A stretch of 64,000 bases of DNA from contig OZ020525.1 of assembly GCA_963971425.1 (NCBI GenBank), positions 4,199,560 through 4,263,559 on the forward strand. Reading direction: 5' to 3'. Under the pieces are notes generated by a model that was given only the letters and a program-made list of their open reading frames with translations, was not told the origin of the DNA and ran no database searches. Positions 19,201 to 53,694 of this stretch are shown in pieces. The stretch's first letter is position 1, and the number at the start of each line of letters is the position of its first letter. The translations under genes were made by a program, and so were the position numbers. This stretch comes from Bryoerythrophyllum caledonicum (lineage: Eukaryota; Streptophyta; Bryopsida; Pottiales; Pottiaceae).

Positions 19201-20710
19201 TCTACCGATAAGATGACGGTTTTAGGTGAACCCCACCCATAACCGAGAACTCAAGCAATGTGTTTACCAATTTATTTTTCAATAGTAGCCAATAGGATTA
19301 CAATTTCAACCCAAGTGCTTTTCCGATGAAATGTGAATTAGTTTTGAATTTTCAAGGTGTGCTACCATGTTTAGGCAGTGGTTACTAGCAGGTACCCTTG
19401 GAAGCGCCAATCCAAAGTACGGGGTTGTCGCTGTTAGCAAACCTGCATTTGGAGTTGAATGGGTTGGATATGCCCCAATTTATAAGTGTTGATTGGCCAT
19501 CAGGGTGGTTATTGTAATTCTTTGGAGTAACTTTGAGAGTTTGGGCAAGTTTGTAGATTTTATTTTGTGATGATTTGTTACCTGGGATAAGCTCTTGACC
19601 TCTAAACGACCAATTGTTCCCTTGCGGGAGTTCCTAAAGATTTCGATTTTGAAAATGAATTTGAAATAGAATGTGTATTTGAAAAGCTCTATGGGGGTAA
19701 TTTTATTTTTATTTCAAGTCTTCTAAGGAAAAAAATATGGTGCTTCGTACATGGAAAGGTGGATTTTGGATCGGCTGGGCTGGTATTGTGGAGCTAAATA
19801 GTACAATATTTTGAGGCAACCTTCACGTCTTTGGTAGTTTTTGATTAAAAGGACGACTCTGGAGCCAAGGAGAATTACATCTAGATTCTCCTTGAACACA
19901 ACTTGCAAATGATAATTCTAGGATCAGAATAAGGCTAAATTCATGAAAAGAGAGATAGGTAGCATGAATTGCACATGAGGATACAATCAGCTCCCTTTAC
20001 AACAATCTCCTTGGTTTTGTCTGCTATACATAGAGCCTCCTATATTGAGCGGATGTTGTAATGGAAAGGCGGTCAATGAGTATACACCAAGTGTTGCCAA
20101 GAGAGAAGATTGGTAATGATCAAGCTGCCTGTTATAATGAGAATGAATGAGAACGAGATTGTTGTTGTATCATACGCTTGAATAAATAAAGAGACCTGAC
20201 TGTGGTGTATCTGTGAAGGCATGGTACGGCACTCCAGTCTTCCACAGTTCCATTGCCTGTTTGAACAAAACATTCTAGAACAAGTTGAGGGAGGAGTGCT
20301 CTCCATTCCCGCACATAGTCCTGCACAGAACATTGTACATCCGACAATGTTATGCTCCTTCTAGAACGAGTGCCAGGTTGGCCATGTGTTCAAGCACAAG
20401 CCTATTATATGGAAACTGATTCTAGTTAAAACTGAAAAGTCCATTGCCAGTGCTTTGAAGGATCTTGGCGTATATTTGAAAAGATTATGTACCGTACCAC
20501 TTCCAATGAAGATGGTTCAAGCCGAAGTGACAGACTGGAGACATACAAGCTATGATGCCATGAGGATGGGAGGAACGAGAGAAGGAGGCCCATGATGTCA
20601 CATGTCTTTCTCCCAGCATAGACACCATTAAGGACTTTGTGTGGCACATATGGCGTCCATGCTGGGCAGCGTGATGATCAGAGTGCCGAGCAGCCCCACG
20701 CAACCTTGTT
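19201..20710. other. intergenic, no gene recognised
   Basis: Several short ORFs (for example minus 20347-20132 and plus 19367-19492) lack domain signals and splice support. A 42-codon + strand ORF at 19367 has coding-like composition but no identity. No repeat family seen elsewhere in the window was recognised here. Confidence 0.3.
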
Positions 20711-31870: not shown

Positions 31871-31874
31871 TTAA

Positions 31875-32730
31875 CCCCTAAAGGACCAAGCCTTGTGCTT
31901 CACCAAAACCACCCCAAAACTGTCACTTTGATATGAGATATTATTAGACTAATTAAAACATATGTTTTCTATTTTCAATTGTAGGATCTTCAAGCTAATT
32001 GCTTAAATTTTTGTAAAAGTCCACCATGCGGATTGTAAGATACATGCATTTGGAGTGCAAAATGATTTTTTCCCATTCTGCCCGGACAAGGTCATCGCAC
32101 ATTGACTCAAGACAATGGCATATTTTCCCACTACACATTGCAATAGCTCAACAGATGTATGTCCTACATTGTCTTAGGTTATTGCAAGCCAAAAATCACA
32201 AGTAATGGAGGTGTTTACAATAGGAAAGATGGACTTGCAACGACTAGGGATATAGAAAGTGGCCCTTTACTTAGGAAAGCAATTTTATTTTTACTTAGAG
32301 AAATGATTGTTGGATTTGAAGTCCAATCGGTGAATAGAATTGTCATGACTTATTCTAACGATAGAAAAAATAATTCCAAAAAAAAAATCAAATCCTTAAT
32401 TTTTATGCTTTTTTAAGTGAAAACATGAAGGTTGCCAAGAACTTTCCTCTACTACTACCTACCTCAAAAATGTGAAATTGTCAAGTCTACAGTAGCACTA
32501 TTCATCTCTGTGGTACCCTGCCCAAGTGCCAAAATGAACAAGCTTCTTATGTTTGAAGCACCATAACTTTTTCTTCATAAGTCCAAAAAAAGAAAAAAAA
32601 AATTACCCGCACATATAACATGTACTTCTATTCTCACTAAAAAAATTCAAGAAGTTATTTCCAAAAATGGGTTCTTAGGAATTTGCCAAATTTGATTTGT
32701 ACCCGGCAAGTACAAATGGTCCTTTAGAGG
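31875..32730. mobile_element. TTAA-flanked element (piggyBac-like MITE), 856 bp
   Basis: Ends CCCCTAAAGGACCA and TGGTCCTTTAGAGG are inverted repeats with one mismatch, and TTAA lies directly outside each (31871-31874, 32731-32734). The interior has no credible gene. TTAA target choice with CCC…GGG ends is the signature of the piggyBac superfamily. The same ends recur at 36-38 kb, where insertion into TTAA can be shown. Confidence 0.65.
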
Positions 32731-32734
32731 TTAA

Positions 32735-33634
32735 GGTGTCTCCCACGCTTTTGATCCAGCCGCCCTATGGCCGGGGCGATTGGTATAGATGCCCTAAAGG
32801 ATAAAGAACATCCGTGCAACACCCTCTACAGAAGGTTTTCAGTTCAAGTGGAGTTTGTGGCTCCCCACCAAGGCCCTCACACGCCAAAAATATCTACCAC
32901 TCCCTCCAAATCTGGTGTCCACACGCAAAAAAGGCCATATTTCTAGTGCCCTTGCTCAAGCCCTGGCTCTCTCCAAAAATCCAAGTGTCCTTGTGTGCAT
33001 GCCCAATATATGAGCACTCCGTTGTTTCTACGTGCGGAAAGGAGCGCGGTTCTATTTTTTAGCGCGGAAGTCGAGCTGAGGATGTGGAAGCAATGACGGT
33101 AGTCTCGTCGCTGCTAGGGCAGGCTTCGTGTAAAGCCCCCGTCGAGAGAGCTTGGAAGTATCAATGCAGGGGATGCACTTAGGCTCCCAGTTCTCACTCT
33201 CATCCGTGCAGGCAACATCAGTTTGTCACATTAGTTGACTCTGGCAAGATGGCCAGATCCATTGCACATGAAGGTGATCCAAGCAGCCAAAATATCAAAT
33301 AACTGTTCAGTCTTTCGTGGCAGATCACTTGGGTCAGTTATCTCTACCGCCACGCTATGTCATCAGATAATATGAATCATTGTGATACCCACGGACCACC
33401 CTTAGAGCTGCTTTACACTATGGCCACCCGTCAAGAATTCTTGGGGAATGGCTGAGAATGAGACCTTTTCTCAGTCTCAACATAATCTATTTCTCACATA
33501 GCTTCCTATTACAAAGTGATCATGCATTCAGGCCAGCTAATGTACATAAAGAAAATCTTTGCAAGCATTAAGTGACGACACATGAGGAATCCACCAGAGA
33601 ACATCATCCAGAGGAGGATGCTACAAGCACAGTA
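32735..33634. repeat. intergenic with dispersed repeat copy
   Basis: About 32850-33100 is an inverted relative of 48000-48220: ACGCCAAAAA, GTGTCCACACGCAAAAAAGG and GCGGAAGTCGAGCTGAGGAT match in reverse order. Near 33402 a segment reading GAGCTGCTTTACACTATGGCCA resembles one end of the Harbinger-like MITE at 34979-35529. No gene is seen. Confidence 0.4.
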
Positions 33635-34968
33635 CAGTGGGGTCGAAAAATAATTCGAATTTTTTGCTTATGTGCGTTTCCACACTACATTGCTGCCAAC
33701 TTTGGCGCCCTCCTCAGGGCTGAAAATTTGTCAATTTACCATGAAATTTTTGGCACAAGATAATTTCTATGTTAAAAAAATGTGTGCCAAATTTCAAGTC
33801 CAAATGTTGAATACAAAAAAAGATACTCAAAATCTATCAAGATGTGTAGTTGTAAGCCATTCACAGCTGCCAACTTTGACATCCTCCCTAGGGCTGATTA
33901 TTTTTTAATTTACCTTGAAATTTTTGGCACAAGATCACCTCTATGTTTATAATAAGTGTGCCAAATTCCAAGGCCACATGAAGAATAATAAAAAGGATAT
34001 TCAAAATTGTTTCTCATAATTACATATTTTGGTAGATTTTGAAGATGGTTATTTGTATTCATCTTCTGGCCTTGAATTTTTGCACACATGTCATCAACAT
34101 GGAGATGATCTTGTGCCAATAGTTTCATGGTCAATTAACAAATTTTCCGACCTAAGGAGGGTGCCAAAGTTGGCAATAGTGAAATGGTTTCCCTGATTGT
34201 TTCTCACGAGTCACAACTACACATGTTGGTAGATTTAGATTTGTTTCTTTTCTTTTGAGGATCCTTTGGACTTGAAATTAAACACACGTATAATCAACAT
34301 AGAGATGGTCTTATGTCCAAAATATCATGGGAAAAAATAAAAAATTGAATCCTTGGGAGGGTGTCAAAGTTGGCAGCAGTGAAATGTTTCTCACAATTAC
34401 TATGCATGTTGGTAGATGTCAAAAATCTTTTGATATGTAGATATTTTGGCCTTCATATTTGGCATGCATGTGATCAACATGGAGGCACTCTCATGTCAAA
34501 CATTTCATGAGAAAACACAAAAAATTCAATCCTTGGGAGTGTGTCAAAATTGGCCAGGAGTGAAATGTTTCTCACAACTACACATGTTGCTAGATTTTGA
34601 ATTAGTTTTATTTGGGTGGATCTTTTGGACTTGAAATTTTTCTAACATGTAATCAACATAGAAGTGGTCTCATGCTAAAAAAACTATGGGAAAAATCAAT
34701 TCTTTCAATCCTTGGGAGGGTGTCAAAGTTGGCAACTGTGAAACTTTCTTACAACTATCCCATGTTGGTAAATCTTGGATATCTTTTTTTGTATAAATCC
34801 CTTGGCCTTGAAATTTGGTGCACATGTTTTCAACATAGAATTGATCTTGTGCCAAAAATTTCATGGTAAATTGACAATTTTTCACCCCTAAGGAGGGCGC
34901 CAACGTTGGTAGCAGTGTAGTGGATACGTACATAAGCAAAAAATTCGAATTATTTTTGGACCCCACTG
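33635..34968. mobile_element. Tc1/mariner-like element (non-coding), 1334 bp
   Basis: Inverted ends of about 140 bp start CAGTGGGGTC(G/C)AAAAATAA, and TA lies outside each (33633-33634, 34969-34970). CAGT ends and a TA target are typical of Tc1/mariner. The interior is mostly a tandem array with an approximately 180-bp period (repeat starts near 34156, 34355, 34533, 34713 and 34893) built from GGAGGGTGTCAAAGTTGGCA and CTTGAAATTT…CAACATAGA blocks. No transposase is seen. Confidence 0.75.
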
Positions 34969-34978
34969 TACAGTCTAA

Positions 34979-35529
34979 GGGCTGCTTCACACTTGGTGGC
35001 CAAGTCGAGAGGCCGTCGATTTCCACCTATGAGATTGCTAGAATGGTCAAAGTCCGGACTTTGGGCCTTCACACTTGTGCCCAAACTCCAAAGGCTGTCG
35101 TCCTACATGGCAACACTTTTGGGTTGTTTTGGCGCCAAAGCGACGGCCTCTCGAGCAAAACTTGGGTCGCCCATTTTAATCGACCCAAACTACAATCGAG
35201 AGTCCGTCGATTTTTTTTATTAAAATAATTAAAAAGTGACAAGATCTAGACCGTTAGATGAAAGAGACCGAATTTTTGGGCTCATTTTTTTGGCTCATTT
35301 TTTTGGCTCATTTTTATTGGCTGATTTATTTGGACTGGTTTTTTTTGGCATAATGATATGAGGTTTGGACTTTGGACTTGGCCTTTGGGGCTTCACACCA
35401 TGACCGGCCAAACCTTCAACCTATATTATTTAATGTGTTTTTTTGGCAAAAAAGTTTGGCCTCTCGCCATAGTTTGGCCACTCATTTTGACGGTCGGCCT
35501 CTCAACTTGGGCATAGTGTGAAGCGGCCC
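34979..35529. mobile_element. PIF/Harbinger-like (Tourist-type) MITE, 551 bp
   Basis: Ends GGGCTGCTTCACACTTGG and, inverted, GGGCCGCTTCACACTATG, with further shared GAGAGGCCG. TAA flanks both sides (34976-34978, 35530-35532), the 3-bp target of this superfamily. It has no gene. It starts only eight bases after the right TA of the mariner-like element. Confidence 0.75.
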
Positions 35530-35532
35530 TAA

Positions 35533-36141
35533 ACTCTTTATATGTTACATGTCGGGAGCAGTAAAACCAAAACACATACTATTGTGTTACAACGTACAAC
35601 ACTTGTAAAATTTGATCTCAATAATTGATAACATTTATATTTTCATCCATTGGGCCAGAATTCATCCAATGTTTCATCCACCATGTTAGTATTCATCCCA
35701 AATAGTCACCTTAAACCCTAAATTGCATTTTTCCTAGCCAATTCTACTTCCCTTCATTGCGTTTTACTGCCCCTCCTCCTATTTACTACTCCATAATTTC
35801 TCTGATTTTTCCAGCTTTAACACTTGTAGAAGTAAAAATAATGAAGTAGGGAGAGAGGCATCTCATAACATTTGACAAATAAGACTTAATAGTGTAAAAT
35901 TTTCAAAAGCATAATTTTCATAACATATATGAGATTATAACACTTGAAGAGGTAACAAATAAAGAGTTTAGATTGTAGACCAGGTTGAGCGACATACATA
36001 TTGTTGGGCCTGAGAGCATGGTCTCTGAGGTGCCGGGGTTGCCATCAAAAACAGGGCAGGGCCATGTGCGGGGCCGGGGAGCTATTTGAGCAATGACACC
36101 ACACTCCAATGAAGGAGCTCAACTCTCCAGCCAACCCTTAT
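35533..36141. other. intergenic, no gene recognised
   Basis: AT-rich sequence with no ORF of note and no repeat identified within the window. Confidence 0.3.
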
Positions 36142-38005
36142 TCCTAAAGGACCAAGTGTCAAAAATGGGCTTGTTGAAAGTTTGGTCAGGTTCATATGGT
36201 GTCAATTTCTAGCATTCCTCTTTGAAACTCTTACTGTAGAAGGGCATTACTAAAACCTCACTAGGAGATCAATTTTTTCCTGAATCCAACATCTCATAAA
36301 AAATAATAATAGGGTTTGGAATCTCAAACAGGGGAAGGAGGCGCATTGGGCACCTCCAAAACTTTTGCTGGAACACTCTTTGAATGTGAGATTTTCAATA
36401 GTAGCAAGAAATATTATCTCCTTTCATATTGTTAAAAATAATTGTCTTTTGTGAAAAATAGCATATTATCCCAAGTCAAACATTTTTACACATTGTTGGG
36501 TAAAACTTGTATAAAAAAAACCTCTAGATCTTTACAATTTTTTTTACTTTTTAGTTTGTCCACAACAATACGTGGACTAAACCTTCTTATCGACCATTTG
36601 GATTTTCAATTTAAAACATATTAAGTTCACAAAAAAGACATAGTGAATTGGCAATTTTTGAACCTCCACTCCTTGCACATTTGTTTTGAATATGCTACAC
36701 CCCTATTCTACCTCTGAAAATTGGTGTATAAAGAACTAACATCATGCTTAACATAATGATTATGGATTTAGACCTTGTGTAGTGCAAAAAATTGACACCA
36801 ACTGAAGTTAAAGCGTGCTAATCCACTCAACTCAACGTAGGGAAGAAAATGAACCATTTTCTTGACTTCAAACACTATAGTATGTCAATCCGTGCAATCA
36901 AAGTTTATGGAATTTTGTAAGTATGTTACTTAACCTCAAAGGTCCAATTGTCAAAAATGGGCTTTACAAAAGTTTGGTCAGGTTCCTATGGTGTCAATTT
37001 CCAACATTCTTCTTTGAAATTTATACTTTAGAAAGGCATTACCAAGATCTTAGTGGGAAAACAAGTTTTTCCAAAATTGGCCATTTGATGAAAAATTTAT
37101 AGGGTTTTTAGTTTCAAATGAGGAGAGTGGGCACCTTGGGCACCTCCAAAAACTTTTGCTAGGACACTCTATTGAATGTGAGATTTCCCATACTTGCAAG
37201 TAATATTGTTTTCCTTCATATTGCTAAAAAAAAATCTTGTCTTTAGTGGAAAATAGCATACCAACCCAAGTCAAACATTTTCACACATTGTTTACTCATT
37301 GTTGGACAAGGTACCAAAAAAACTTCTTCTTTTCCAAATAAAACTTTGATATTTTTTTATTTTTCATTTTTTATTTTTTCCACAACATGTGGTGTAAACC
37401 ATCTTATTGATCATTTGGATTATCAATCTAAAACATATTAAGTTCACAAGAGATTAAAGTGTGAATTGGCAAATTTCAAACCTCCACTCCTTGCACAATT
37501 GTTTCAAATATGCTACACCCATCCTCTACCTCTAAAAATTGGTGAACAAGGAACTAACATCATGCTTAACAAGATGGTAATGGATTTAGTACTTGTGTAT
37601 TGCAAAAATTTGACACCAAGTGAAGGCAAAGTTTGTTGATCCACTAAACGCAGGGAAGAAAATGAACCTTTTTGTTGGACTTTAAACACAATAATCTTTC
37701 AATCTGTGCGGTGAAAGTTTATGAAATTTTGTAAATATATTACTTAAAAACTTTTAATTGAGATCCTACGGTCAGAACTAGAAATCAAAGTTTTGGTTTC
37801 CTTCTTTGTTCATTGCACTAGAATCCAACAAGTTTGAAGTGTTTTGGTATAAAACTGTCATGGTACCTTAGGGGTTAATAAGTCAAAATGAAGATCCTGC
37901 GGTTCAAACATGAAATAAAAGTTTTTGTTTCCTTCTTTATTTTGCCACTAGGATCCAACAATTTTGAAGTGTTTTTGGTGTGAAATTGTCATGGCACTTT
38001 AGAAG
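36142..38005. mobile_element. outer TTAA-targeting element containing a second copy
   Basis: The left end is TCCTAAAGGACCAAG after TTAT (a changed TTAA). The right end is CACTTTAGAAG followed by TTAA (38006-38009). A related element at 36934-37874 lies inside it. The outer left part (to 36929) and the inner copy share an approximately 790-bp direct repeat (for example TCAAAAATGGGCTT, AGTTTGGTCAGGTTC, TATGGTGTCAATTTC). Confidence 0.7.
36934..37874. mobile_element. inner TTAA-targeting element (piggyBac-like MITE), 941 bp
   Basis: Ends CCTCAAAGGTCCAA and (inverted) CCCCTAAGGTACCA; TTAA lies directly outside both (36930-36933, 37875-37878). Removing it with one TTAA rejoins TTTTGTAAGTATGTTAC-TTAA-TAAGTCAAAATGAAGATCC in the outer copy. 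This matches the inner element's own sequence at 37744-37747 (TTTTGTAAATATATTAC-TTAA, then GAGATCCTACGG). It is therefore a direct empty-site proof. No transposase gene. Confidence 0.8.
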
Positions 38006-38139
38006 TTAATCTCTACTCCATTGATTAAAACTTGCCATTAATTGGGGATTTCCTTAGGGACTTAAGAAGGGACTCCCATTCTATGTTGGTGACAACGTAG
38101 AGTCCACTAGTCTCTTCTAATAAAAGGTTAAGTTAAATG

Positions 38140-38600
38140 AATTTTATTTTATTATAAGATTTTTTGGTACCTAACTTGATAATGTGTGACAACATGTGAC
38201 AATGTGTGACAATGTGTGAAAATGTTGATTTAACTAAAGACAAGAAATGTTTTTTTGAAAAAATGAAAGAAAATAAAATTACTCGCTAGTATTGGAAATT
38301 TCACAATTGGTAGAGTGTTCTAGCAAAAACTTTGGAGTTGCCCAACGTGCCCACACTTGGGACGTTTTTCTTAAGATGACATAACTTTTTCTTTGAATGT
38401 CATATTTAGGGGGAAAATGGACTCATACAAAGCTTTAAGTAATGCCAACTACAGTAACAAATCCAAAGAAAAATCATACAAATTGACACCATAGTGTATA
38501 ATTAGCTGCGCAAATTCTCTTCAAGAGCTAATTTTAGCCAATTTGGATATTGCACTTTAAGTACCGCTCAAAGCCAGTGAACGTTATGAAACTATGGCTA
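38140..38600 (-). repeat. inverted partial copy of the 36-38 kb element
   Basis: Read in reverse it follows the order of 37130-37330: AAAACTTTTGCTAG-like, GTGAAATTTCC, CTTGTCTTTAG and the repeated TCACACATTGT unit. Near 38185-38225 the TGTGTGACAA unit is tandemly repeated about four times. Confidence 0.5.
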
Positions 38601-39075
38601 GTCTACACAAAGTCTAGTCATCCAATACACGACGATTGATGAGCGACTAGTACAGTGACCCGTTCTTTCCAACAAGTATTAAAAATGTAGGAAATGCAAC
38701 TCTAATTGTAAAAGTAAAGCTCTAATCCTCCTCCTCGGAAACATCTCTCTGTTAAGTAGTGGATATCACCTAGGTATCAATGATATCCGGTAGAGCACTT
38801 ATAGTATGGGCGATTCGTGTGCATATACAAAATCTCATGAAAACGCGCAGAACAATGTTGGCCGAGAGAGCCACCACATAGGCGAGGAACTCATCTCATT
38901 GGCAATCACATCGTCTAAAGTTTCAACACTAAAGGCCGGAATTTCATTTTTGGTGTGCTCACCATCGATGCCTCCCAATAAAGGCCACAACAATGTTTGC
39001 ACCACCCTGATTAGGGAACTCAATATTGTGGTTGCTCAAGCTATTTCGGAGAGGTGGGAATGGCACTTTTTTTTT
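38601..39075. other. left flank of Copia element; small unassigned ORF
   Basis: The ORF 38806-39087 runs into the left LTR, so its C-terminus is not host sequence. It has no recognised domain. A GATATCACCTAGGTATCAATGATATCC palindrome-like stretch at about 38763-38790 shares the GATACC-type motif found elsewhere. Confidence 0.3.
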
Positions 39076-40111: not shown

Positions 40112-43100
40112 GGCCAATCTTGGCCATTTGAGTGTCATCATGGCTTTATTCGACAATGAGAGTGCTAGGGTCATAGACAAGTTCAAAGGGGACAACTTCA
40201 ACATTTGGAAGTTCAAGTTGAAGATGGTGTTGGAATCCATGGACCTTTGAGAGATTGTTGCGGACTCACTAAAACCTCCATCCTTCAACAATGATCCAAA
40301 GGTGATAAAAGACTACAATCGGCGTGTGAAGAAGGCCATGTTTGTCATTGGGCTCAATTTGGTGGACAACCAACTTGCCTAAATTAAGAGTTGCAAAGGA
40401 CCGGCGGAAGCAAAAAAGACTTCGTGCAACATCCACGAAACAAAGAGCTTGTCCAACATCCACGAAACAAAGAACTTGTCCAACATCCTCTTCATTCGTT
40501 GCAGGTTCTTCACAATCAAGATGTAAGAAGGTGATGACTTGTTGACGCACATCAACCAAGTGAAGGCACTTGCGGATCAAGTCAATTGCTTGGAAGTACC
40601 CGTCAAAGATGAAGATGTGATGATGACATTGCTTGAGAGCTTGCCGCCCTCATTTGAGCACTTGATCTCCACCTTGGAGACGTTGCACATGAAGTACCTC
40701 ACTATGCAGTTTGTGGTTGCACGGATGATGCGCAAAGTGTTGAAGTGTAACGATAAATAGGCGCATGGCGATGATGCGGCCTTGATATCAAAGCAAAGCA
40801 AAGGGGGCAGCTCATCCTCAGGTGACAAGCCCAAGGTATGTTACAATTGAAGCAAACCGGGCCATTTTGCACGAAATTCTTTCAAGCCGAAGAAACGGGA
40901 GCGGAACAACGCAAATCAAGCAAAGGAGAAGGAGAATGCCAACCATGCCAAGGAGGACGATGACTACGCATTTGCAGCTCAAGATGGACCTCATTCCAAG
41001 TCCATTTATAAGTGGATTTTGAATTTGGGCGCCACTAAAGACGTGACACTACATTGGGCATCATTTCATACGTATGAGGTGATTCCATCACGCAACGTGC
41101 ATTTGGGTGATAATAGTGTTGTGGAAACCATTGTTGTCAAAGTGCTTGTGAGGGGGCGTTCAAAGAGGATGACATATCAACGACGTCCTCCATGTGCCGA
41201 AGTTGCAAGCAAACTTGCTATCTGTAAATAAGATTGTGTTAAGCAGTATGAAGGTACAATTCAATGTAGACAGGTGTTCAATGAAGGCACCAAATGGAGA
41301 TATACATGCGGTACTACCTCGTGAAGACAACTTCTATCAAGTGGCCTTTACCAAGGTGTATATGGCGGATGCGGCCAATTTGGCACAATCATCAAGAAAA
41401 GAATGGCGCTGTGGAGCTTTGGCATTGTTGATTTGGTCAGTTGAACGTGAGAAGTGTGCATTTTCTTCAAAGCATGGAAAGTGGCATGATCCTTGGCAAA
41501 AATGAGTCATCTATGTCATTTTGTGAAGGGTGTGTGCAAAGCAAGCGACATAGGGCACCATTTTCAAAGGATGGAAGGACTCGTGCCACAAAGCCTTTGG
41601 AGATTGTACATTCGGATGTGTACGGTCCCATGAGGATGACGTCTTTTGGCAGTGCTAGGTACTTTGAGACCTTCATTGATGACTTTCAAGGAAGGTGTGG
41701 TTATACACGTTGAAGACAAAGGGGGAGTGCCTTAAGAAGTTCAAGAAAGTTAAGGCACTTTTGGAGAAGCAATCCGAGCACAAAATCAAGGTGTTTCAGT
41801 TCGACAATGGTGGAGAGCTCATCTCTAAGGCATTTCGAGGCTACTTGAAGCATCATGGCATCAATAGGCAACCATCAACACCGTACTCGCCCGAGGAAAA
41901 CGGAGTGGCCGAGCGAGCTAAGTGCACCATTATGGAGATGGTGAGGAGGATGATCTATGCTCAACTGCTCAAACTTGCTTTTTGGGTGGAAGCGGAGACC
42001 AATGCGATGTACATCCGCAATCGGTGCCCGCCAAGGGCGCTTGTCACCATCACACCATATGAGGCTTTGAGCGGCCGCGGGCCATGCATTGCACACATGC
42101 GTGTATTTGGATGCATTGCATATGCGATGGTGCCGGATGCAAAGAGAGGTAAGCTCGATGCAAAAGGCGCAAAGTGTTTGTTTCTTGGCTATTGCGAGGG
42201 CACCAAGGTATATCGCTTTATGTGTGTTGAGACGAAGATCATTCGGATTTGTGATGTGGTATTTGTTGAAGATAGCTCAAGTGTTGATCATGGTTTAGAG
42301 ATGAGTCCAAGTAGGAGTATTGATACGCCTTCATTGGTTTTGGTGGACGATTCTTCCAAACCAAGTACCACGGGTGATAGTGATTCCAATAAGGAGAAGA
42401 CAATGGATGGTGAAGAAGAAGGTGCAATTGTAGGGCCTTTACAACATCTACATCAACATCAAGTGGTGATGAGGATAGTGGGAGCACTTAAGAGCCACGA
42501 TATCCAAGAAGGGAGCGGCGGCTGCTTGGAGACTAGTGGATGAACCACATCTTGCCGCAAGATGAAGTGGAGCGGACCAATTTGGCAACTCTTGAGGATC
42601 CATTGAACGTGTGTGAAGGCATGCAATCGGAGGATGCGAACAAGTGGGAGGCGGCTATGCAAGAGGAGTATGACTCGTTCATGGCAAATGAAACTTGGGA
42701 GTTGGCTCCCCTTCTAAAGGGTCGCGAGAGCATCGCATGCAAGTGGATGTTTTGCACAAAGAAGGATGCTTTAGGTCAAGTTGTGCGCCACAAGGCGCCA
42801 TTAGTGGCAAATGGATACTTTCAAGTTGAGGGGGTGGACTTCCTTGATACCTTTGCTCCCGTTGCAAAGTTCAACACCATTCGGTGCATCCTTGCGCTTG
42901 GAGCCGTGTAAGATTTGGAGATCCATCAAATGGATGTGAAGACTGCATTTTTGAATGACAATTTGGAAGTGGACATCTACATGAGCCAACCATAAGATTT
43001 TGAAAAGAATGACTTTAAGCATCTTGTGTGCAAGCTCAAGAAATCGTTGTACGGACTCAAGCAATGACCGAGTGCTTGGAATCAATCGATCCACTCATCT

Positions 43101-50479: not shown

Positions 50480-53400
50480 GTGAGGTTGGAGTTAGGGATG
50501 CTAGGAACTCGGCAGACTAGAGCGGAAGCAGGCGCAGCGGGACATACGTCACCACTCGCGATTCAATTGCAGCAGGCATGGCTTCAGTCGCAGATACAGT
50601 CGCAGTCCACGAAGCTGCAGCGGAGAGGGATGGCGACCTCGCGCGCGGTGGAGAAGCAGTTCCATCAGGTGTCGTCAATTGTTGCGGATCAGAATGGCGT
50701 CGGAGAGTATTTCCACAAGAGTAGGCTGGAGACGCCGGAGTTTCTGAAGAGACCTGTGACGCCGCAGCTTGTTTCGTACTCGAGGAAGGCGGACTTGCCG
50801 CAGAGGTCGATCTCCGGGAGCGTTTCTGATGTGTCCACTCTCTCGAGTTTGTCGTCGCCTAGTTCCAGCTCGCTTTCGCCTTGTTCGCAGCTTGCACCTC
50901 AGCGACAGGCTTCTGATGTTTTAGACTGTGGAGATAGCGGCGCTCTGGATCAGACTGAGCCGCTTGTGCGCTTCTTGGATGACTTGCTTATGGACGAGGA
51001 CCTGGAGAAGGAGAAGCCAACGGCGCAGGAAAGATTTGAGTACCAGGCCATGGCCGATGAAATCGAGGCTCTTGTTACTCCCGAGCACGGGAGAAGCGAG
51101 TCCACGTACGAAGATTACGACATTAGTTGGACGACGGGCGTGGTCAGCTTGCGAACCGAAGAGGAATTGACCGAGAAGCTCATTCATGCTTACACCAGCA
51201 ACCTCTACAAGCATGTGACAGATGTGACGGATGTGGCTGAAAACGTAGACTCGAGCGCCTGGATCGACGAGCGAGATGCGTGCACTGACCACTCAGATAG
51301 CCAGTGGGATTATTGTCTAGAGAACCTTCGTGTGAAGCCTGAAGGTCGCTCGTTCAGCTCGTCGCTTCTCCAGGATCATTTCTTCGCCAAGGACATGTCG
51401 CTAGATACCTTCTTCAGTCCTGGTTGCGTTGATATCAAGGAGTTGCTTCTCAGGTACGCAGCATTTCTTGGCGAGCAAGAACTTTAGAGAGTGCAACAGT
51501 GATCTGAAATTCCTGTGTACTGTCCACTGTTCGAGGTTCCAGAGTTTTCTGGTGGCGATAGTGCCGTTTATCTCTTCAAATGTGAAGCGCTGGCTGAAGA
51601 TTTTAGTTCCAGCCACATTATGTTTTCTTTTGAATGAGAGCTTGGCGTGGTGACAGCTTTAGTGGTTTAGTTATGTATGGTTTCCTCAGAGTAGCTCGTC
51701 ATTTTCTTCTAATTTGTGGTCTTAGAAACGATTGGAAAGAGCTGAAAAATCATCATTCCGAATGTAAGGCTAGAGACGCTTCTTGCGAGTTGCACCAACT
51801 TTAAATATCTTAAACAAGGAACCGCAGGACTCTGAATTCAGTACTGCAAGGAAAAGAGGGAATTTTTAGTTTTTGGAAAGGATAATAGGGATGGTCGAAA
51901 GCAGAATTTTTTTGGTCAAAGTAGCACGTTGTACTTTACTTTGTCATTTAGGAATCACTAAATATTTGAGCTTCCTGTTGCTCAAATTTCTCGATCAGAA
52001 CAACTCAAGTGCTCGGATGGTTCACACCTGCGAGTTAGAGACTTGTTTCTTGAGCTGACGGTAGATGTTGTGGTTCAGATGCGCGCTTGTAGTGAGTCAA
52101 GACGATGCGAGAAGTGCGAATGACTTGATAAGAGAGCTTCGGCATCACTCGTCGGTATACGGAAATGCGCTTCAGCGGTTGGCATATTATTACATGGAGG
52201 CTTTGGTAAGTTAATGCTCCACCAAAAGCATCAGTCACCACGGATTTATTATTATTCATTTGAACCTCTTATATTCAATGTACACTCGGCTGATACAGTG
52301 CAACATCACGGTGCAGCCTTGTTCCTGTGGCCATGCTTTGTCCTTACGAATCTCTTTGTTTTTGTCGTGCAGGTTGCCAAAATGTCTGGAACGGGTGCTC
52401 AATTATACATGGCCATTTCTAGCAATACTCACTCTTCTGCCGCAATGCTGAAAGCTCATCGTTTGTTTGTGGACTACAGCCCGTATATCAAGGTTTCTCA
52501 CTTTTTCTCGACGAAGACTATTCTAGATGCCTTTGAAGGAGCTGAACATGTTCATGTGGTCGATTATGGAGTCTTGTGGGGAGCGCAATGGCCTTGTCTC
52601 ATCCAGCGCCTGTCCCAGAGGCGCGAGGGCCCGCCTCACCTGCGAATTACATGTAAGCACACTCCTGTTGGTTTCTATGTACAGAAGAGTTTACATGCTT
52701 CCTCGCCCATAATGATGGCAGTTCTTACTCTTCAATGGTCTCCGTTATATGCCTGCTTGTGCACGAACCAGTTCAGGAAACTTGAGATGCGGTTAAGATT
52801 TAACAGAAACTGGTGTCTTTTATTTCAGGTCTCGATCTACCACAACCGGGAGGGAAACCCTCTGCGAGAGTACTAGAAGTAGGCCACAGATTGGCTCAGT
52901 TTGCAAAATTGTGGAACGTGCCCTTTGAGTTTCAGGCGCTGGCTGACAAGTGGGAAACGATTACGCCCGCGCAACTCTGTTTGAAGCACGATGAGGTTGT
53001 GGCAGTGCAATGTCAGTATAGGCTTGAAAGCCTCCTCGACGAGTCCATAATGGCTGCAAGCCCTCGAAAGGTTGTTCTCGACAGGATCCGGAGCATGAAT
53101 CCCAAGGTGCGTATATTTACGATTTTGTCTGCTGGTGCAGCTTTTGACCTGCAACTGCGACTGAATCCCGCCTTAATATTCTCAGATGGTTTTGGATATG
53201 CTTAGTGTGCTACTTGGGTTCACTGTACTATACTAACAATCGGCTCTACTGTTCTGCAGGTCTTCGTCATGTTAACGGCCAACGCAAACTACAACGCGCC
53301 TTTCTTCATGACCCGTTTTCGTGAAAGTCTGAAATACTACTCCACAATGTTTGACGCCATGGAAGTCTCGATGCCCTTGAATGACCCAGACCGAGTGATC

Positions 53401-53694
53401 CTTGAGAAGGGGTATTATGGGCGAGAGATTCTAAACATCGTTGCATGTGAAGGAGTAGAAAGAGTGGAACGCGCAGAGCCTTACAGGCAATGGCAGACTC
53501 GCACGCAACGAGCTGGGTTTACACAGAAGCCGCTGTCGCCCATCATGATGCGAAAAATCCAGGCCATGATGGGTTCGTATCACAAAGAGTACGGCATCGG
53601 CGAAGACGGGTGCTGGTTTCTCATGGGATGGAAGAATCAAATCGTGCGCGCATTGACAGTGTGGGAGCCCACACCAACGAGTCAAGCCACCTAA
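50480..53694 (+). CDS. GRAS-family transcriptional regulator (SCL, LISCL-like), 5 exons, 697 aa
   Basis: Exons: 50480-51453, 52079-52205, 52373-52652, 52829-53106, 53260-53694, all GT-AG and in frame. Residues 1-316 form a poorly conserved, Ser/Gln- and acid-rich N-terminus. The GRAS domain starts at VDIKELLLR (317). The first leucine heptad has RCALVVSQDDARSANDLI…QRLAYYYMEAL. The VHIID block reads VHVVDYG, followed by WGAQWPCLIQ. The PFYRE region and a C-terminal SAW block (WFLMGWKNQIVRALTVW) are complete. LISCL placement rests on the RELRHHSS, GREILNIVACEG and YRQWQ segments. It acts in the nucleus as a transcriptional regulator, usually through protein partners. Four introns within the GRAS domain are unusual for the family. 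ATG 50630 is an alternative start. Confidence 0.9.

Follow-up and report, generated by a model that had tools for sequence, protein, structure and literature searches.

What kind of transposon stands inside its own relative in a moss genome, and which enzyme moved it? The question arises from a stretch of 64,000 nucleotides of Bryoerythrophyllum caledonicum DNA (contig OZ020525.1, positions 4,199,560 to 4,263,559), here called the window, in which a first-pass annotation had proposed a plant family of TTAA-specific, piggyBac-like elements. Here we report an analysis of this locus, of its relatives throughout the genome and of the transposases encoded there. The inner and the outer element are very probably non-autonomous MITEs of the piggyBac superfamily, about 945 bp long and non-coding, moved by a transposase encoded in the genome, most likely that of the lineage designated III below.

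The nested pair in the window

The inner element starts CCTCAAAGGTCC and ends GTACCTTAGGGG, and the TTAA that had been described on each side of its inverted ends is indeed seen at 36930-36933 and 37875-37878. It splits an outer, older relative that spans 36142-38005, and the outer pieces flanking it match the inner element in the same order. The features of the locus are the following, all four target duplications having been read directly:

36138..36141: left target duplication of the outer element, decayed to TTAT
36142..36933, plus strand: outer copy, left part, 77% identical to 36938-37747 of the inner element; its last 4 nt are the TTAA target of the inner element
36930..36933: left target duplication of the inner element, TTAA
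36934..37874, plus strand: the inner element, non-autonomous and 941 bp long; counting substitutions, its identity to the 39-copy genome consensus is 92.0%
36934..36953, plus strand: left TIR of the inner element; family consensus CCCCTAAAGGACCAAGTGTC
37744..37747: TTAA site as carried by the inner element itself
37855..37874, minus strand: right TIR of the inner element; family consensus CCCCTAAGGTACCGTGACAG (inward reading)
37875..37878: right target duplication of the inner element, TTAA
37879..38005, plus strand: outer copy, right part, 82% identical to the right end of the inner element
38006..38009: right target duplication of the outer element, TTAA
38156..38494, minus strand: third relative of the MITE, partial, inverted and without recognised ends, 72% identical to the consensus

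When the inner element is excised together with one TTAA and the outer parts are rejoined, the sequence reads ...GTTACTTAATAAGTC..., and the corresponding place in a 41-copy consensus, for which the two window copies were combined with 39 others, reads ...ATTACTTAATAAGTC.... The claim that removal of the element with one TTAA restores a readable site is borne out, since the restored site agrees both with this consensus and with the inner copy's own 37744-37747. A consensus built without the two window copies is matched at 92.0% by the inner and at 84.6% by the outer element, and at 91.9-96.5% by the 39 copies from which it was made. The inner element is therefore the less diverged of the two, and the relative ages fit the nesting. 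Judged from this layout, the inner element is an insertion into a TTAA of an older copy of its own family, which gave rise to the nested pair.

Tandem duplication or unequal crossover, rather than insertion, could also be read into the locus, as it contains similar blocks in tandem, two of about 800 bp followed by two of about 130 bp. The order of these blocks, however, is left-left-right-right, and their joints coincide exactly with TTAA and with the two ends of the element; moreover, the inner copy is whole and the less diverged (92.0% against 84.6%), and the restored outer site agrees with the family consensus. We consider an origin by duplication very improbable and retain insertion into a TTAA as the reading of the nested pair.

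Genome copies, TTAA flanks and empty sites

The genome (437,360,962 bases in 894 contigs, with the window on contig 14) was searched at the DNA level, and the best 40 candidates scored, the window copy included, were near full length with 86-100% identity. The aligned set (n = 40) consisted of 39 copies retrieved with their flanks and the inner element of the window, two weak partial matches being left out. A first look gave 11,662 candidates; this figure was rejected as a copy number because it is not a copy count, and counts of exact matches were used instead.

The common form of the copies is TTAA-CCCCTAAAGGACCAAGTGTC ... CTGTCACGGTACCTTAGGGG-TTAA. Exact TTAA is found on both sides in 29 of the 40 aligned copies, on the left only in seven, on the right only in two and on neither side in two, and 38 of the 40 have at most one mismatch to TTAA on both sides. 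According to the first-pass annotation, flanks other than a duplicated TTAA would speak against such a family: 29 of the 40 copies do not have them, and 11 do, nine of the latter with at most one mismatch on each side. The two copies with TTAA on neither side are L031 (G000:C6:20869709-20871247), flanked by ATAT/ATAT, and L032, flanked by TGAA/TAAA; copy L040 has a damaged right end. The perfect ATAT/ATAT duplication of L031 records an insertion at a non-TTAA site, and because ATAT stands on both sides, the four bases are the duplicated target.

TTAA starts at 0.43% of the positions of the window and at 0.8% within 35001-39000, so that TTAA on both sides of 29 out of 40 copies is more than expected by chance. 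Six of these 29 copies (L017, L019, L020, L025, L029 and L033) represent one shared insertion, with the same flanks, inside another repeat; consequently, the number of independent insertions is about 35, with TTAA on both sides in about 24.

Many TTAA-flanked copies had been named as support for the proposal, and the exact-match counts show them. The 20-nt left end CCCCTAAAGGACCAAGTGTC occurs 1268 times genome-wide (663 + 605) and is preceded by TTAA in 1073 cases (559 + 514), with 0 occurrences of the reversed-pattern control. The 15-nt core CCCCTAAAGGACCAA, whose count takes in other families besides this MITE, occurs 3897 times (1987 + 1910), in 3243 cases (1627 + 1616) with TTAA before it; the control patterns occurred once (core alone) and not at all (with TTAA). 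Since only exact matches are counted and decayed ends are missed, all of these are lower bounds; the inner element of the window, with its diverged left end, lies outside them.

The repeat that hosts the shared insertion was used as a query, composed of its two flanks and one TTAA. It yielded seven filled places, in which the flanks are about 940 bp apart, the seventh being C3:26255206-26256556, and two empty relatives that align without interruption across the junction and have a single TTAA each, C2:3917069-3917283 (83%) and C10:3796392-3796600 (82%); the remaining matches cover only part of one flank. The empty sites, namely these two relatives and the outer element of the window compared with the consensus, keep exactly one TTAA. 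By analogy with the known piggyBac reaction, we infer that excision is seamless.

The longest stop-free stretch of the MITE consensus over six frames is 57 codons, and the MITE is therefore non-coding. Its left and right TIRs are identical at 12 of 20 positions, and the consensus starts CCCCT; the transposase-bearing elements of lineage VII, described below, start CCCT. In the portion of PMC10175614 consulted, piggyBac TIRs are given as 12-19 bp long, starting CCYT.

The piggyBac transposases and their link to the MITE

A search for a longer relative encoding a DDE_Tnp_1_7 transposase had been proposed as a check, and such genes are present: searching the genome with PF13843 (DDE_Tnp_1_7) gave 120 matches (best E value 6.2e-81; all listed ones above the cut-off), a few of which are two pieces of one copy. 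The same family gave 0 matches in 14 control genomes, a set that includes a cyanobacterium and is a weak control as to plants. For six translated frames PF13843 was the sole Pfam family at E up to 0.01, and it was likewise alone at E up to 0.1 for the lineage III frame. Three motifs that hold the catalytic residues, DE (VDEMM), DN (CDNFFTS/MDNYFTS) and GVD (GVDV.DQL), aligned with those of solved transposases. Among the solved structures, L056 matched 6x67 (E 3.1e-31) and piggyBat 9c0f (E 4.3e-28), and L058 matched 9c0f (E 1.4e-28) and 6x67 (E 2.6e-27); PDB 6x67/6x68 are the piggyBac transposase of Trichoplusia ni.

The first 20 of the 120 PF13843 matches were taken as loci, and 19 of these were compared. 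The DN motif served as the selection criterion, and the DE and GVD patterns were found in 18 and 16 of the 19 loci, respectively; L060, missed by the motif pattern, was grouped with L062/L064 by DNA identity. The 19 loci fall into eight groups; protein identity between groups is 38-71%, except for the pair V and VI (79-81%). Lineage I includes five copies (L050-L054) that share 98-100% DNA identity over 3.8-4.1 kb and have open frames of 674-821 codons.

Whole transposase-bearing elements were delimited in three lineages. In lineage VII, L056 (4933 bp) and L061 (4942 bp) share 97.2% identity over their full TTAA-bounded length, with homology stopping at TTAA on either side. In lineage V, L060 and L064 are bounded by TTAA, measure about 5.04-5.08 kb and have the ends CCCCTAAAGATCC and CCCCTAAGAATCC. 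The left end of lineage III is hidden by N gaps in L058 and L067 and was located further upstream, where the homology of three copies (C9, C1 and C11) starts exactly at TTAACCCCTA[AT][AG]GGACCAAACGTCCC. Its right ends (n = 4; C6, C9, C2 and C1) read [TA]TAAC[CT]CC[TC]AAAGGAC, with TTAA in three copies and ATAA in C1. Element lengths are 9292 bp on C9 and about 8.69 kb on C1. The C6 frame is open over 618 aa, with its left side behind an N gap, the C9 frame has two stops and the C1 frame is split over two frames; among the lineage III copies looked at, none combined both ends with an unbroken frame. The left ends of V and VI (L077, L078, L080 and L083) carry GGCTTTTT...TTCTGGTCAGG about 27-50 nt in and an inverted ...GGGTTAA at about 70 nt, so that the left end resembles a small palindrome bounded by TTAA; in the MITE, GGTCAGG lies at a similar position.

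One transposase lineage, III, also has ends that match those of the MITE. The left 20 nt of the MITE consensus are alike with the left ends of lineage III at 16 (C9), 18 (C1) and 17 (C11) positions and with its right ends at 13-16, while the right 20 nt are alike with the right ends at 13-14 positions and with the left ends at 11-12. The C1 copy carries the exact core CCCCTAAAGGACCAA on either end and the C6 copy carries it on the right; the remaining lineage III ends deviate from it by 1-3 bases. The likeness extends inwards: over nt 21-60 (200 shuffles, 14 pairings in all), the MITE left end against the lineage III left ends gave z values of 2.9, 3.5 and 3.9 for three copies, and right against right gave 4.1, 3.2, 4.0 and 4.2 for four copies, in contrast to z of -1.1 or lower for the crossed pairings. 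Since left resembles left and right resembles right, the two MITE ends are a true left and a true right end of the kind found in this group. Over nt 13-60, the MITE right end against the lineage III right end gave z 5.0; the MITE left end gave 4.0 against the left end of V and 6.5 against that of VI, and z was between -1.0 and 2.2 for the nine remaining pairings. For the left subterminal part VI fits at least as well as III; among the ends compared, which for VI are left ends, lineage III alone fits the MITE on both sides.

Internally, the MITE and lineage III have no more than short matching stretches, so simple deletion from the lineage III elements compared does not account for the MITE. 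MITE-like DNA also lies beside transposases of lineages I and II (L049-L054 and L066), and was rejected as the terminus of an autonomous element: the stretch adjoining L050-L054 is without both MITE ends, and that adjoining L049/L066 is a separate TTAA-bounded element. In L061, the MITE-like DNA lies outside the mapped transposon.

From the shared ends we infer that a transposase of lineage III, or of a close relative, moved the MITE family. A piggyBac transposase from another locus of the genome, lineage III being the most likely source, would recognise both MITE ends, excise the element and insert it at TTAA, leaving TTAA on both sides; the nested pair would have arisen when one such insertion hit a TTAA within an older family member. 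The TTAA duplication, the empty sites and the DDE_Tnp_1_7 partner with matching ends uphold the earlier proposal of a piggyBac-like, TTAA-specific family in a plant.

A MITE of the PIF/Harbinger superfamily (Tourist-like) would duplicate TTA or TAA, with the fourth base belonging to the element itself. Both trinucleotides are contained in TTAA, and Tourist elements are described in PMC10004981 as plant MITEs flanked by TTA/TAA. The flanks, however, comprise four bases on both sides of a common start CCCC and a common end GGGG, and the perfect duplication at L031 is of 4 bp, not 3. In addition, exactly one TTAA is kept in the empty sites, and the long element that shares the ends carries a PF13843 transposase gene. 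A Harbinger origin is extremely improbable on this evidence, and assignment to piggyBac is preferred. Sola3 is the other superfamily known to duplicate TTAA, and a Sola3-type element, to which the TTAA duplication alone would point, is likewise extremely unlikely given a piggyBac transposase in an element with matching ends.

Relation to known systems and further elements

piggyBac is widely used to engineer animal genomes and is commonly regarded as an animal transposon; to our knowledge, its near absence from land plants is usually assumed. In insects, piggyBac MITEs are short, flanked by TTAA and without a transposase. The moss elements resemble piggyBac (6x67/6x68) and piggyBat (9c0f) in the TTAA target and its duplication, in the CCC.../...GGG TIRs and in a DDE_Tnp_1_7 transposase with three aligned motifs. 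They differ from known piggyBac in their land-plant host, in the size of the long elements (about 4.9, 5.1 and 8.7-9.3 kb) and in MITE termini that start CCCCT. Non-autonomous piggyBac MITEs of insects are represented by iMITEdb (PMC5199201) and by a Helicoverpa study (PMC9033116); in comparison, the moss family is about 945 bp long and is seen alongside transposase-bearing elements with matching ends in one and the same genome.

PiggyBac has been named for land plants before, and the kind is therefore already known in plants by name. In the sections of the following sources that were consulted, PiggyBac is among the superfamilies present in all groups studied, land plants included (PMC4438587), is one of seven MITE superfamilies of angiosperms (PMC10004981), has 1,230 entries in the repeat table of a fern, C-fern (PMC6890710), and is named among plant superfamilies (PMC10794571). 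The moss elements are likewise land-plant piggyBac, as are by name those of PMC10004981, PMC4438587 and PMC6890710; those entries, as far as the consulted sections go, are labels or counts, whereas here ends, empty sites and transposases are found together. PMC10619864 was rejected as a source, as the word there is 'piggybacking'. Among the open-access literature matches listed, there was no description of a moss piggyBac family or of this MITE family. What is new here is a plant piggyBac system whose parts can be checked together, in a host group for which the superfamily is little described. It provides a natural plant piggyBac system to study, possibly with transposases adapted to plant cells, and it makes the origin testable, as descent from an early plant ancestor or as horizontal transfer from animals or other eukaryotes.

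Several lineages have open frames, and one has copies that are 98-100% identical. On this basis we tentatively suggest a native, recently active piggyBac radiation, with at least eight transposase lineages among 20 loci, in which one lineage may cross-mobilise several unrelated short families that share its 15-bp terminus; we regard this as possible, though short of probable. If true, the plant would have evolved a piggyBac system no less rich than the animal ones.

Further short elements and piggyBac-like ends were observed in the window and elsewhere. A second TTAA-bounded element lies in the window:

31871..32734, plus strand: TTAA-bounded element, 864 bp with both TTAA; left end CCCCTAAAGGACCAAG, right end CCTCTAAAGGACCA

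Its interior showed no match to the MITE beyond the terminus, and it probably represents a separate short family that shares this terminus. On G000:C1, among the first 100 matches listed, perfect TTAACCCCTAAAGGACCAA ends form pairs spaced 815-819 bp at 3090958-3091776, 7965758-7966572 and 9242428-9243243, and these point to one more short family whose inverted ends are perfect. Lone piggyBac-like ends stand in the window at 2489 (minus strand, TTAACCCCTAAAGGACCAAGACATTTTAGA, exact) and at 19595 (plus strand, TTGACCTCTAAACGACCAA, three mismatches); allowing up to five mismatches, no partner end was found for either. Near the nested pair, the window carries a cluster of direct and inverted repeats at 33629-34974, with pieces of about 140-740 bp that are 67-82% identical. 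The genes point to a photosynthetic eukaryote, by the GRAS gene given below most likely a land plant, and probably to a moss: among chains of a single domain, one LHCII protein (L097) comes nearest to 8htu and 7xqp, both Physcomitrium structures, with 9vfj, a longer chain of several domains, scoring higher. Further features recognised in the window are:

41683-42908: pieces of a Copia-type retrotransposon
within 52124-53691: pieces of a GRAS-domain gene

Elsewhere in the genome, the chlorophyll a/b-binding family has 58 matches.
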